64,000 nucleotides of DNA from Salmonirosea aquatica (GTDB lineage Bacteria > Bacteroidota > Bacteroidia > Cytophagales > Spirosomataceae), in the NCBI RefSeq assembly GCF_009296315.1, contig NZ_WHLY01000002.1:1364001-1428000 (forward strand). The letters run 5' to 3'. The notes under the pieces were generated by a model. The model was not told the origin of the DNA. It ran no database searches and worked only from the letters and a program-made list of their open reading frames with translations. The translations under genes and the position numbers were made by a program. This document shows positions 49,541 to 54,014 of this stretch, in pieces. The number at the start of each line of letters is the position of its first letter. The stretch's first letter is position 1.

Positions 49541-50419
49541 ATGCAATCCAACGTACTGACCGAGGTTTTCTTACCGCTGGCTTTGGCCATCATTATGCTG
49601 GGGATGGGTCTGTCGCTGGTGGTAGATGACTTCAAACGAATTCTGCTGTATCCCAAAGCCATCACCGTCGGCATCGTCAATCAGATTGTATTGCTACCCC
49701 TCATCGCTTTCGCCATAATCATGGTACTGGAGTTAAAAACCGAACTCGCCGTGGGGCTGGTGATTCTGGCGGCTTGTCCGGGCGGACCTACCTCCAATCT
49801 GATCTCTCATTTGTCGCGGGGCGATGTGGCGCTTTCCATTTCGCTTACCGTGGTTTCCAGCCTGATTACGGTGTTCACCATTCCCTTTCTGGTCAATTTC
49901 GCCATCGTCGAGTTTATGCCCAATGGTCAGGAACAGGCACTGCCCATTTTCAAAACCATTATTTCGGTCCTCGTCATCACACTCATTCCGGTCGCGATTG
50001 GCATGGTGATCCGCCGCATGAAACCTACCCTGGCTACGCGGCTCGACCGCCCGGTCAAGCTGCTTTCCGGCATTTTCCTGTTCATCATCATTGCGGGCGC
50101 TTTGTTTAAAGAAAAGGAAAACCTGGTTGGTTTTTTTGTATTGATCGGCCCCGCCGCCCTCCTTCTCAACCTGCTCACGATGGGCGTCGGCTACGGTACC
50201 TCCCGCTGGACGGGCCACAGCCTCAAACAAAGCATCACCATTGCCATTGAAGCGGGAATCCAGAATGGTACCCTGGGCATCGCCATTGCGGCCACCCTGC
50301 TGCAAAATGCTGCCATGTCTATTCCCTCGGCCATTTACGGCCTGCTGATGTTCGTAACTTCTGTTGGGATTATCTGGTGGGGGAATCGGACGATTCCGCA
50401 GGTGAAGGGAGAGGTATAG
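49541..50419 (+). CDS. Bile acid:sodium symporter family (BASS) transporter
   Basis: Inner-membrane symporter of 292 residues with about nine or ten helices. VILAACPGGPTSNLISHLSRG and EAGIQNGTLGIAIAATLL carry the crossing-region motifs of the family. Members import bile acids, pantoate or other organic anions with sodium. Placed 34 bases after the phosphatase, it could carry the product of the upstream enzymes into the cell. Confidence 0.92.
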   Translation: MQSNVLTEVFLPLALAIIMLGMGLSLVVDDFKRILLYPKAITVGIVNQIVLLPLIAFAIIMVLELKTELAVGLVILAACPGGPTSNLISHLSRGDVALSISLTVVSSLITVFTIPFLVNFAIVEFMPNGQEQALPIFKTIISVLVITLIPVAIGMVIRRMKPTLATRLDRPVKLLSGIFLFIIIAGALFKEKENLVGFFVLIGPAALLLNLLTMGVGYGTSRWTGHSLKQSITIAIEAGIQNGTLGIAIAATLLQNAAMSIPSAIYGLLMFVTSVGIIWWGNRTIPQVKGEV

Positions 50420-50472
50420 GGAAGGGGGGTTCTGTTTCGTGGACAGTGGATTAGAATCGGCATAGCATGGCC

Positions 50473-50594
50473 GCTAACGGATTAGATTTTTCGATGGTGC
50501 GGATTTGAAACATTAAACTGTCTACCCGCACAAAGTTCATTAAATGCACTACTGTTCATATTCGCACGTCCACCTCCATAACGCAAAACTGCTA
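50473..50594. other. Structured non-coding flank of AT-rich cassette
   Basis: Contains GTGCGGATTTGAA (50498-50510), nearly complementary to TTCATATTCGCAC (50556-50568), then CCATAACGCAAAACTGCTATTAGC running into the stop of the next gene. Its first 34 bases resemble the bases at 53282-53315 on the other side of the gene. I recall similar sequences beside cargo genes in other Bacteroidota, but cannot verify it here. Confidence 0.45.
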
Positions 50595-53249
50595 TTAGCT
50601 GCTGATTATTTTTACATTTTTCGCACAAATCCCTTTATTATTATGTCCTTCTTCAAATGAAACAAGCTGTCCATTTTTAACTTTTTTTAATTCGTTTGTG
50701 TTTTTAATTTCAGAAAAATCTGTGCAATGAGCAAAATATCTTTCGTTTTCCGAATCAATGAATACAAATGAGTCATTCGAGCCTTTCATTATATTTCCAA
50801 TTTTAGTACCCTCTTCAATTTGGCTATCCAGTAAGTAGTTTAGAGAATCATCATCAAATTTTTCGGAAAATTTTAAAACAACTTTTCTATTAAGGTATAT
50901 TAAGCTTATTTGATTTTTATTTTTTTCAATTATTGTTTTTATATATAAATGGTTCTTTTCAATTTCTGTTGAAGGTAACATTTGCATAAATATATAAAGG
51001 GCTTCACAGAAATTCTTTATCATTTTAATGTCTACAATTTCCTTCTTTACACAAATGTGAAAAACATCAAAAGCTTTTTTAAAATGGCCTACTCCATTAT
51101 CAATATCATTTTCTATTTTCAAATAGCTTTGCCCACTATGATTGTATAAACTAAGAAGCTCTGTATATGCAACTCTTAGATTTAAAGGATCTAATTCTTT
51201 ATCGGAAATTAAGTTTTTTATGATTTGTATTGCCTTATTAAATTCTTTCATCACATTGTAACAACGTGCAAATAGAAATGAAGAATTTGGATGGTCTGGT
51301 TTTAATTTAAAAACTTTTTCAGCACATTCTAAAGCTTTTTCTGTGTCCTCAAGATGGAAAAGTAAAAATTGTGCATAAAAGTATAGTAATCTTGGATTTT
51401 CGGGAGCGATTTCTAAACCTAAGATATAATCATCTTCTGCACTTAGCGTATCGCCATTAGTTGCTTTCATAAAAGCACTTACCCTATATACTTCATAATA
51501 ATTAGGGTCTACATTTTTAGCTTCGGTAACTTTTTGAAAGGCTTTAGTATAATTATTAGCTTTCGAAAAACTTAAAGCTTCTGATAGTAATTTTGCTGCA
51601 ATTCTTTGATTGGGGGTCTCGCAAGCCAAAGCATTTATTGAGAACTCATTATAGTTATTTATCTTTTTAATTTCTTGAATGCCCGAAGTTAACTCACGTG
51701 ATTTTGATGTTATTCTTTTTACATATGCTTGGTCAACAGGGTGTTTTTGTGATAAATATTCTTTGGCAAAATCTGGAATATAGTAGTAGACTTCTTCAAT
51801 ATTCGTCGCATCTACTATCTCTCTGCTAATTAAAGTAGTTTTAAATAATTCAATTAAATATTTTCGTGCATCTAATGTTTCATAATCTGAAAGATACAGT
51901 ATCTCCGCACTACTAAGTTTTCTTCTAGATGCTCTTATTGAATTTAGAACAGAAATTGCGCCCTCACTTAATTTTTCATAAACATTAGTCAAACAAAAAT
52001 TCAATAAATTATCCTTGTTGTTCAATACTTCTTGTGGTGAGATTCCTGTTTCAACTGTACTTACGAACCATTTTAAAGCCAAGGGATTGTAATATAATTT
52101 AGAAGCTATGTCAATTAATGTGCTTTGTGGTAGTTTCATTAAAATATCACTATTCCTTATTCGTGCTATTTCTCTAATTAGTTTCGCACATTCATTTTCT
52201 GTTAAACCGCTTAAAGTTCTTGGGTATTCCAATTCACCTAAACCTATCCTTGACGTAATAACTATGTTGCATTTTGTTTGAGCATTTCGAATAAAATTTC
52301 GCACTTCTTCACTTTGTATAGTTTCTAAATTATCAATGATTATTAAAGTTTTAAATAATTCTAAGTATTCAATAACTGCATCAAATTTATTGATTGTTAT
52401 AGATTTGTCTAATGAATCTGATATTACAGAAATTAGTCCGGTATAGTCAGTTATTGCTGTATAAATATCTTCAATACCTTTTGATGTCAGCATAGTTGTT
52501 TTAGCAGAAGTCCAAATGATAAGTTCAAATGGACACTTATCTCCCATATCAACTAAGTCATAAGCCACTTTTACTGCTAACGCTGTTTTTCCAATACCTC
52601 CATCTCCTAAAATACTAACTACTTTATTTGAAAATATTAATTTTTTAATCTCATCTACATCTTTTGTGCGACCAATAAAACCCGTATCGTCAAAATCTGG
52701 AGCCGGCAAATTATGCGTTACTTTACTAGGTGTCCCGTAAGTTACAATGGTAGGAAGGCGCAGAGTAAGCAAATATGTTGGATCTTTATCGATTAATTCT
52801 CTGGTTTCAATTGCATACTTCCAATCGATTGGCAAATTACTTTTTAGCTTTTGCACAAAGTCATATACTGTTGAAAAGTCTCCACCTAACAATGGTCTTG
52901 TATGCATTACTCGATTTCTAATTGGAGTTAAATCGCTAAGTTCTCCAAATATTTGTGACAAATATTCAGATGTTTTTTTTGGCAAAAAAACATCGTTTTT
53001 CTTTAGAATATTAAACGAATCAAAAAAATCAACAAAATCTAAAACATCATCAATGTTATTTTTATAGTCAACGCCTGGGTTATCCTTTTTAAATCGGTCG
53101 ATTATTTTTGATTCAAGTTCGGAGTCTTTAAAAAATCCTACGTCCTCTTGAAAGGGTGTTACATATCTTTTAAGAACGTTTTTTATGTCTATTTCTATTC
53201 CATAAAGGAATGCTGCGAGTGTTAATCTTATTTCAGTTATTCTTGCCAT
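50595..53249 (-). CDS. HEPN-STAND(NB-ARC)-TPR-cold-shock-domain protein, probable anti-phage defence
   Basis: 884-residue signalling NTPase. Residues 1-150 are helical with an RNRVMH motif (111-116), the Rx4H form of HEPN ribonucleases. The STAND core has Walker A GDGGIGKT (215-222), Walker B LIIIDNLE (302-309), a sensor ITSRIG and a winged-helix-like part. TPR-type helices (KAFQKVTEAKNVDPNYYEVY, KALECAEKVFKLKPDHPNS) fill about 550-720. The last ~70 residues (IGNIMKG, FVFID, RYFAHC, G-LVSFEEG, KGICAKNV) fit a cold-shock nucleic-acid-binding domain. The gene is far more AT-rich than its neighbours and has no GGTACC, so it is foreign. Defence is inferred from architecture; the trigger is unknown. 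Confidence 0.85.
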   Translation of the reverse strand: MARITEIRLTLAAFLYGIEIDIKNVLKRYVTPFQEDVGFFKDSELESKIIDRFKKDNPGVDYKNNIDDVLDFVDFFDSFNILKKNDVFLPKKTSEYLSQIFGELSDLTPIRNRVMHTRPLLGGDFSTVYDFVQKLKSNLPIDWKYAIETRELIDKDPTYLLTLRLPTIVTYGTPSKVTHNLPAPDFDDTGFIGRTKDVDEIKKLIFSNKVVSILGDGGIGKTALAVKVAYDLVDMGDKCPFELIIWTSAKTTMLTSKGIEDIYTAITDYTGLISVISDSLDKSITINKFDAVIEYLELFKTLIIIDNLETIQSEEVRNFIRNAQTKCNIVITSRIGLGELEYPRTLSGLTENECAKLIREIARIRNSDILMKLPQSTLIDIASKLYYNPLALKWFVSTVETGISPQEVLNNKDNLLNFCLTNVYEKLSEGAISVLNSIRASRRKLSSAEILYLSDYETLDARKYLIELFKTTLISREIVDATNIEEVYYYIPDFAKEYLSQKHPVDQAYVKRITSKSRELTSGIQEIKKINNYNEFSINALACETPNQRIAAKLLSEALSFSKANNYTKAFQKVTEAKNVDPNYYEVYRVSAFMKATNGDTLSAEDDYILGLEIAPENPRLLYFYAQFLLFHLEDTEKALECAEKVFKLKPDHPNSSFLFARCYNVMKEFNKAIQIIKNLISDKELDPLNLRVAYTELLSLYNHSGQSYLKIENDIDNGVGHFKKAFDVFHICVKKEIVDIKMIKNFCEALYIFMQMLPSTEIEKNHLYIKTIIEKNKNQISLIYLNRKVVLKFSEKFDDDSLNYLLDSQIEEGTKIGNIMKGSNDSFVFIDSENERYFAHCTDFSEIKNTNELKKVKNGQLVSFEEGHNNKGICAKNVKIISS

Positions 53250-53333
53250 TTTTCTATTGTTGATTTTTCCTGTAATTTGCAGCTAAGGGTCGAGTATTTG
53301 CGAAGGCAGGGAATTCTTTTCACCATGCTCTGT

Positions 53334-53370
53334 GTCCCCACAGACCTTAGCCCAGCGCTGCTAAATATAT
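53334..53370 (+). repeat. 37-bp imperfect inverted repeat, copy A
   Basis: Begins GTCCCCACAG and contains CTGCTAAA. Its counterpart in reverse orientation lies at 53781-53817. The two share the outer 10 bases and the CTGCTAAA block, and bracket the transposase remnant. Confidence 0.6.
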
Positions 53371-53469
53371 TCAAACCTGTCCATATAATGGGTCAGAATG
53401 CCAAACTCATCAACGCCCGTTTCGTAAAGACGCGCCGAAGCCCAACAGTAGTTCTTAGGCCGGGCTGCG

Positions 53470-53648
53470 TTCCGATCTCTTTACCGTTCGGCTCTTTCAT
53501 TTCCCTAACTACGTGCAGGTGGTTCGGCATAATTACCAACCCTTACCCCATCATTATTTTCCTTTCAGTCAACTCTTGCGAGGAAGAAATGATGACCTCC
53601 TTGTACTTATCCGGTTTTAGTAATCGCTTCCAATCCTTGATCGTCCCC
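53470..53648 (-). pseudogene. Decayed IS200/REP-associated (Y1) transposase
   Basis: On the minus strand one frame reads TIKDWKRLLKPDKYKEVII, then a TAA, then GLVIMPNHLHVVREMKEPNG. The NHLH block (HUH motif, bases 53513-53521) and flanking residues are diagnostic of Y1 transposases of the REP-associated kind common in Cytophagales. The N-terminus is replaced by tandem repeats and the part after the HUH motif soon loses likeness, so no active protein is possible. Confidence 0.75.
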
Positions 53649-53722
53649 GACTAGGCGTCCCCGACTAGGCGTCCCCGACTAGGCGTCCCCGACTAGGCGC
53701 CCCCGACTAGGCGCCCCCGACC
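53643..53722. repeat. 14-bp tandem repeat, five copies and a part
   Basis: Unit GTCCCCGACTAGGC: four copies start at 53643, 53657, 53671 and 53685; a fifth, GCCCCCGACTAGGC, starts at 53699; a partial sixth, GCCCCCGACC, ends at 53722. No spacers, so not a CRISPR array. It abuts the 5' end of the transposase remnant, whose own sequence begins with the same TCGGGGACG. Confidence 0.95.
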
Positions 53723-53780
53723 AATAATCAACATGGTCGAACTCCATTCTAGAATTTCGGTATCTGCTTTCCTGGTATTC

Positions 53781-53817
53781 CATATTTTAGCAGGGTACCC
53801 AAAAGGGCTGTGGGGAC
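53781..53817 (-). repeat. 37-bp imperfect inverted repeat, copy B
   Basis: Reverse-complement partner of 53334-53370: reads GTCCCCACAG and CTGCTAAA on the minus strand with equal spacing. Marks the other side of the decayed element. Confidence 0.6.
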
Positions 53818-54014
53818 GCAACCCACAGTAAAGGTGGGCAGCTGGGCTTTTTAGCAAAAGTAACCGTCTAAGCAAGCTATGCAAGGTTTCTACCCAATTT
53901 CCCTCCCAGCTTTCAAGAAAGTTATCTAACGGTAAAAAGCACTTCTCCCAGCCCACCGGTTAAAAGCAGCCCGACCGCTGCTTTTAGTGTTGAATAACCA
54001 ACCGACAAGCCCGC

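Follow-up and report, generated by a model that had tools for sequence, protein, structure and literature searches.

In a 64,000-nucleotide stretch of the Salmonirosea aquatica genome (contig NZ_WHLY01000002.1, positions 1,364,001 to 1,428,000; hereafter the window), a gene at positions 50595-53249 encodes a protein of 884 residues that combines an N-terminal HEPN-like domain, a STAND ATPase of the NB-ARC type, TPR repeats and a C-terminal cold-shock domain (CSD). We propose that it is a single-protein, NLR-like anti-phage factor acting by abortive infection, a reading to which we give a probability of roughly 0.65. The gene is real, intact and probably defensive, and its architecture was already known as a prediction (Anantharaman et al., 2013; PMC3710099). 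It consists of one intact open reading frame (ORF) on the minus strand, running from an ATG at 53249 to a stop at 50595; the plus strand across the same interval is riddled with stops, and an earlier note on this DNA, made from the sequence alone, had named no strand. All features are located in Table 1.

A search of 84,980 species genomes with a four-sequence profile gave 83 pattern matches, from two peptide patterns only, and at least 67 loci of this family; viral contigs gave 63 pattern matches and three loci, and a plasmid search yielded full-length relatives in Rhizobium and Planococcus. Proteins of at least 700 residues were obtained from 65 of the 70 loci, the five shorter ones (L042, L067, L077, L079, L082) being excluded before alignment; with four plasmid proteins and that of the window added, these are the 70 aligned sequences considered below. 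Per-domain identities and aromatic counts come from the 61 rows that remained after nine were removed. Three plasmid members and the distant relative L017 are included in the 70-row alignment and are not part of the structure alignments or the tree.

The N-terminus carries the motif of the Swt1/Abi2 branch of the HEPN superfamily, Rx4-6H with a polar residue after the arginine, here in the form RN-x3-H. Its residues R111, N112 and H116 are invariant in 69/69 rows having the region (L036, as called, does not include it). Among the family N-termini, 44 of 65 match Pfam HEPN_Swt1 (PF18731) at E<=1, with a best value of 1.2e-4, and 13 of 65 match Abi_2; for the window protein itself no Pfam HEPN match was found at E<=1, and its first ~160 residues have no Pfam match of any kind. 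An AlphaFold model of the N-terminus has a predicted local distance difference test score (pLDDT) of 89.6, and the top nine rows of a VIA-align search with it are all HEPN chains: PbAbiF (Z 8.3 over 154 residues), Csm6' (6.7) and HepT-type HEPN toxins (4.7-5.6), the next, unrelated row scoring 4.3. We take 5yep and the aligned portion of Csm6' to be HEPN. Foldseek returned nothing at E<=0.001 with the same model, and a search of solved structures with the N-terminal profile gave weak, unrelated matches only. Model, VIA-align rows and family Pfam matches, each modest alone, together agree with the HEPN helical-bundle fold and with the proposal, made in the earlier note, of an HEPN-like N-terminus with an Rx4H motif. 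From motif and model, we consider the N-terminus to be HEPN-like and a predicted ribonuclease (RNase).

Could this domain have lost its activity? It might be an inactive HEPN-like adaptor, as has been suggested for eukaryotic Swt1, the protein then signaling through oligomerization to something else. HEPN_Swt1 is the closest Pfam model, and the HEPN of eukaryotic Swt1 is thought to be inactive (Anantharaman et al., 2013; PMC3710099, in its passages on Swt1). We nonetheless regard an inactive adaptor as very improbable: the motif is lost in eukaryotic Swt1 but invariant here, and the table of the same paper rates the STAND-TPR-S1 group as mostly active.

The central part of the protein is a STAND module with Walker A and Walker B motifs, an NB-ARC core and an ARC/winged-helix part; the earlier note had read an intact NB-ARC-type ATPase here. 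Pfam NB-ARC covers residues 195-401 (E 4.2e-9) and TPR residues 616-684, both above cut-off, and the Walker A lysine K221 and D306 are invariant in 70/70 aligned sequences. The Walker and HEPN motifs have remained invariant although overall identity is often <30%. Across the 61 rows, mean pairwise identity is highest in the NB-ARC core (0.43), followed by the HEPN (0.29), TPR (0.24) and CSD (0.24) parts. In the whole-protein model (pLDDT 88.9, predicted TM-score 0.69), the best VIA-align neighbors of residues 173-520 are plant NLR resistosomes, CED-4 and Apaf-1 (Z 20-24), and Foldseek places the STAND-TPR protein 6mfv first.

The model finishes with five strands (residues 815-881), in agreement with the cold-shock-like fold claimed earlier for the C-terminus. 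Pfam CSD in the window protein (residues 827-880) is sub-threshold, with an E-value of 2.8e-4 and a score of 21.1 bits where 27 are required, and the tail alone reaches 2.3e-5. Among the family tails, 43 of 63 match Pfam CSD at E<=0.01 (best 3.8e-26), and a profile of the tails finds Csp-type chains in the PDB at 1e-12 to 1e-15. An aromatic residue occupies positions 828, 830 and 839 in 60, 61 and 61, respectively, of the 61 CSD-bearing rows, and we take these positions to be the counterparts of the base-stacking aromatics of Csp proteins, in RNP1 and RNP2. The fold is accordingly that of a five-stranded OB barrel of cold-shock type, although the window tail itself stays below the Pfam cut-off. 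The most likely ligand of the CSD is RNA or single-stranded nucleic acid.

The CSD is an optional module. Six of the 70 members (L029, L031, L033, L034, L047, L085), at three places on the tree, terminate after the TPRs, and no CSD was found within 3 kb downstream of them (L034 and L085 had only 0.8 and 1.7 kb left). In one of 63 tails, that of L073 from Planctomycetales (L073:9974-12991), S1 takes the place of the CSD, and eight members (L035, L036, L038, L040, L041, L048, L081, L084) have two cold-shock-like C-terminal domains as judged by the family's own profile. The CSD count depends on the profile used: 33/70 with a profile of Bacteroidota tails, 63/70 with one of all CSD tails, which is circular, and 43/63 with Pfam. 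An E. coli relative of 775 residues (P0002, L148:13488-15815), which is 33% identical to the window protein over 684 residues, has intact HEPN and Walker motifs and no CSD. Given its absence from this protein and from the six tail-less members, the CSD is probably not the only sensor, and the earlier view of it as the sensing end is weakened. The optional tail suggests that part of the sensing falls to the TPRs, with the CSD contributing RNA binding, either for the trigger or for the substrate.

It is quite conceivable that the TPRs alone sense, through the same RNase switch, and that the CSD is a substrate-docking or ribosome- or RNA-anchoring part that only raises efficiency. The loss, doubling and S1 replacement of the tail would fit such an arrangement, as would the TPRs, which are present in all members and have diverged at the same pace as the CSD. 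The aromatic surface conserved in 61 rows, however, suits a sensor as well, and members without a CSD may sense a different trigger.

In the mechanism that we propose for the anti-phage factor, the NB-ARC/STAND module would hold the protein inactive at rest, and a trigger arising in infection would bind the C-terminal half, that is the TPRs and, in most members, also the CSD. Nucleotide exchange would then allow the STAND modules to oligomerize, which would bring the N-terminal HEPN domains into pairs and thereby assemble active RNase sites from their RN-x3-H motifs. Cleavage of RNA (tRNA, rRNA or mRNA) would stop translation, and the phage would fail. The CSD may be part of the triggering or may bring substrate to the HEPN sites. 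We judge the sequence of trigger, oligomerization, HEPN pairing and RNA cleavage to be the likeliest, given how STAND proteins and HEPN RNases are known to work; the order of its steps is argued by analogy.

The family is patchy and mobile, and its distribution supports the defense role suggested earlier. Relatives occur on prophages, on plasmids and beside integrases. Of three members inside phage-type loci, from which ten proteins were scanned, L087 lies between portal and tail genes on a phage-type contig, L085 by an integrase and a primase, and L086 near a repressor. The E. coli relative is present, in identical form, in 13 of 5,426 E. coli genomes; in the three of these 13 that we viewed it sits between intE and icd, an interval that we take to be the place of an e14-type prophage. 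Family genes are lower in G+C than their flanks at 59/62 loci, compared with 10/26 for control ORFs (Mann-Whitney p 3e-11; L085-L087 omitted). Each of the 30 carrier genomes examined has a single copy. No second full-length copy was found in 58 other genomes of the host's family or order, and no full-length copy was seen in 394 other genomes of the phylum, with two candidates scored per genome. In the tree, the window protein groups with full support with an Algoriphagus protein (80% identical) and a Flavobacterium protein, from two different families. Mostly vertical inheritance away from defense islands is not the overall pattern; yet the 11 phylum labels of the tree (66 rows, of which 62 are labeled) are strongly clustered (11 changes, where shuffling gives 36.4 on average), which points to transfer chiefly inside phyla. 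The window gene itself lies outside a defense island.

Genes near the relatives include matches to PADLOC models of Avs2 (L030), Dsr2 (L032), DpdF (L025) and an RtcR-type protein (L047), and a type I restriction operon lies near L014. We compared 111 of 150 neighbors from test loci (20/26 loci) with 113 of 156 from controls (19/26 loci), selected by length and residue limit. Ten of the 111 were scanned singly: four gave no match, and six matched PADLOC models at E<=1e-10, the matches to PbeA and mad8 being weak. Among the matches listed for the controls (25 of 74 models), methyltransferase and housekeeping-type models predominate; for the test neighbors 25 of 100 models were listed. In our qualitative judgment, the difference between the two sets lies in which models are matched.

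Several results weigh against an anti-phage function. The number of PADLOC models matched at E<=1e-10 differs little between the sets (100 for the 111 test proteins, 74 for the 113 controls, counted as models and not as proteins). No PADLOC model matches the window protein at E<=1. Searching 50,697 phage records with three members as queries gave no match, and a first viral scan with a single protein was likewise empty. The neighbors of the window gene are ordinary or metabolic (a bile-acid-symporter-type transporter, heparinase and phosphatase proteins) and form no defense island. That the window protein is HEPN-like is concluded from its family and the model, its own Pfam score giving no support, and a VIA-align Z of 8.3 does not settle the matter in a helical bundle, where such values are modest.

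A conserved operon partner was looked for and rejected. The 367 neighbors within three genes form seven clusters, and the only one spanning more than two loci consists of seven tyrosine recombinases. Such recombinases are linked to 9/49 test loci and to 0/26 controls; six of the nine supplied the query recombinases, and the independent loci are L022, L050 and L062 only. Another explanation is that the protein is a nucleic-acid-sensing stress regulator or an addiction-type toxin, not mainly directed against phages, whose RNase slows growth under other stress. STAND ATPases include transcription regulators such as MalT, HEPN RNases are also toxins of toxin-antitoxin pairs (HepT, among the structural neighbors here), and the plasmid relative L017 lies by RelE and helix-turn-helix (HTH) genes. 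We consider this explanation improbable: there is no antitoxin-like partner, only 5/65 loci have a close same-strand neighbor, and the prophage and integrase linkage and defense-type neighbors speak for the anti-phage factor.

L017 (L017:4521-7190), a distant relative of 890 residues with the RN-x3-H motif, is encoded by an Acinetobacter plasmid of 8 kb, where toxin genes of the RelE/ParE type and HTH genes are close by. A member fragment of 479 residues, running up to the contig end (L042:3547-4983), was found in a bin named Heimdallarchaeota, where bin contamination is possible.

Among known systems, AbiF/AbiD proteins are HEPN abortive-infection RNases, and PbAbiF (8vz6) is the top structural match of our N-terminus; we know of no STAND or TPR part in AbiF. 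The title of 8vz6 states that AbiF works with a non-coding RNA, a further difference from the protein described here. With Avs, bNACHT and TIR-STAND-TPR proteins of P4-type hotspots, as outlined in the relevant part of PMC9122126, the window protein shares an N-terminal effector, a STAND ATPase, C-terminal repeats, a single-gene layout and carriage by phage satellites or prophages. It differs in its HEPN effector and in the CSD added after the TPRs, and assignment to Avs or another catalogued system was rejected for want of a PADLOC match. CoCoNuT type IV restriction systems likewise unite cold-shock-like OB folds and HEPN nucleases in predicted RNA-directed defense, but they are multi-gene systems of the McrBC-type GTPase kind rather than one STAND protein (PMC11090510, in the portion describing these components).

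The architecture is not new, contrary to the expectation that a terminal CSD would be unusual. In its sections on Swt1-like HEPN, the 2013 survey predicted fusions to STAND ATPase, TPR and S1, mostly active, and bacterial HEPN-STAND proteins of which some have cold-shock-like tails (Anantharaman et al., 2013; PMC3710099). Its STAND-TPR-S1 proteins Npun_F6454, MED222_16016 and Desac_1927 and the B. cereus protein gi 229028907, with a cold-shock-like OB fold, have the same domain order, a predicted active RNase and a predicted role in conflict. Compared by their description in that survey, they likely belong to the same family, in which we find the CSD to be the common tail and S1 the exception. 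In the open-access literature, we found no experimental study of the HEPN-STAND-TPR-OB class; subscription papers fell outside this scope, which makes the negative weak.

Another parallel in layout is SAMD9. As described in the parts of two papers devoted to its domains, SAMD9 has a STAND-TPR-OB core, whose OB fold most resembles that of cold-shock proteins (Mekhedov et al., 2017; PMC5445408), and an N-terminal effector that is a tRNase (PMC12331169). SAMD9 and SAMD9L thus resemble the window protein in the STAND P-loop, the TPRs, the C-terminal cold-shock-like OB fold and the N-terminal RNase effector, and the order of NTPase, TPR and OB fold is the same. With the whole model, Foldseek ranks 2-7 are SAMD9 chains at E 4e-11 to 6e-10, though with TM-scores of 0.13-0.16, and SAMD9 is absent from the 50 best VIA-align rows. 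SAMD9 contains AlbA_2 and SIR2-like parts, neither of which Pfam finds in the window protein, where HEPN stands instead, and its Walker A motif has G in place of the lysine. Membership in SAMD9 was rejected for the lack of these parts and the intact lysine.

A bolder idea, which we think rather unlikely as a whole, is that the family is a bacterial counterpart of SAMD9, with RNase effector, STAND switch, TPR scaffold and cold-shock or S1 tail forming a common immune layout. The OB tail would read phage or damaged RNA and license cleavage, uniting RNA sensing and destruction in one polypeptide, and would be gained, doubled, swapped for S1 or lost as triggers change. If our proposal of an anti-phage factor is right, these proteins, with 67 or more loci in a single genome collection, would be a widespread class of bacterial NLR-like proteins with RNA cleavage as output and an RNA-binding module as tail, and would link abortive infection by HEPN proteins with sensing by STAND modules. 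For SAMD9, a human antiviral factor, they would also serve as a simple bacterial model of its STAND-TPR-OB layout. What the tail does could be tested by comparing the natural variants that have a CSD, an S1 domain or no tail, and the E. coli prophage relative makes the class testable in ordinary laboratory strains.

Judged from its composition, the window gene was apparently acquired recently, and its description as a lone, AT-rich gene lacking GGTACC was accurate. It has no operon companion, and its G+C content is 29.9%, against 52.5% in the remaining window. The window (1-64000) contains 128 GGTACC sites, about nine-fold more than the 13.7 expected from shuffles; none lies inside the gene, and the longest GGTACC-free gap (50266-53793), where ~6.9 sites would be expected, spans it. 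In G016, which belongs to another genus of the host's family, the flanks align up to window position 50483 and again from 53918. Between them, the matching G016 site (L144:4795-9536) has another AT-rich cassette, which encodes ferritin-like, LodA-like (lysine-oxidase type) and FAD-binding proteins; none of these matches PADLOC. A defense hotspot at this site was therefore rejected, and we regard it as an acquisition site and not a defense island. Two further genomes, G023 and G033, have relatives of both flanking genes, but these lie at a distance from each other or on separate contigs.

Table 1. Positions in the window of the gene, its predicted domains and motifs, and adjoining features.
Feature	Residues	Positions	Strand	Observations
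Whole gene, 884 aa (P0001)		50595..53249	-	ATG to stop
HEPN-like helical domain (Swt1/Abi2 type)	1-162	52764..53249	-	AlphaFold pLDDT 89.6; VIA-align PbAbiF Z 8.3, Csm6' 6.7, HepT 4.7-5.6; HEPN_Swt1 44/65 at E<=1
R-N-x3-H, predicted RNase motif	111-116	52902..52919	-	R, N and H kept in 69/69 rows with the region
HNLP linker (conserved) and NB-ARC nucleotide-binding core	178-345	52215..52718	-	Pfam NB-ARC E 4.2e-9; mean pairwise identity 0.43, best-conserved part
Walker A, GDGGIGKT	215-222	52584..52607	-	K221 in 70/70
Walker B region, LIIIDNLE	302-309	52323..52346	-	D306, N307, L308 and E309 in 70/70
ARC/winged-helix part of STAND module	346-520	51690..52214	-	VIA-align plant NLRs, CED-4, Apaf-1, Z 20-24 over ~173-520
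TPR superhelix	546-798	50856..51614	-	Pfam ANAPC3 and TPR_19 above cut-off; helical pairs in model
Cold-shock-type OB barrel	813-884	50598..50813	-	Five strands; Pfam CSD E 2.3e-5 on tail, below cut-off; F828, F830, F839 aromatic in 60, 61, 61 of 61
Segment missing at the matching G016 site, taken as acquired		50484..53917	.	Flanks aligned up to 50483 and from 53918 onward; gene without GGTACC
Decayed frame resembling a REP-associated (Y1-type) transposase, with stops		53290..53620	-	MPNHLHVV motif

GGTACC is a strong palindrome signature of the host genome and may mark native DNA. Just upstream of the gene, positions 53290-53735 hold the decayed transposase-like frame together with a tandem 14-base direct repeat; its MPNHLHVV motif is one that we presume to be typical of REP-associated (Y1-type) transposases.

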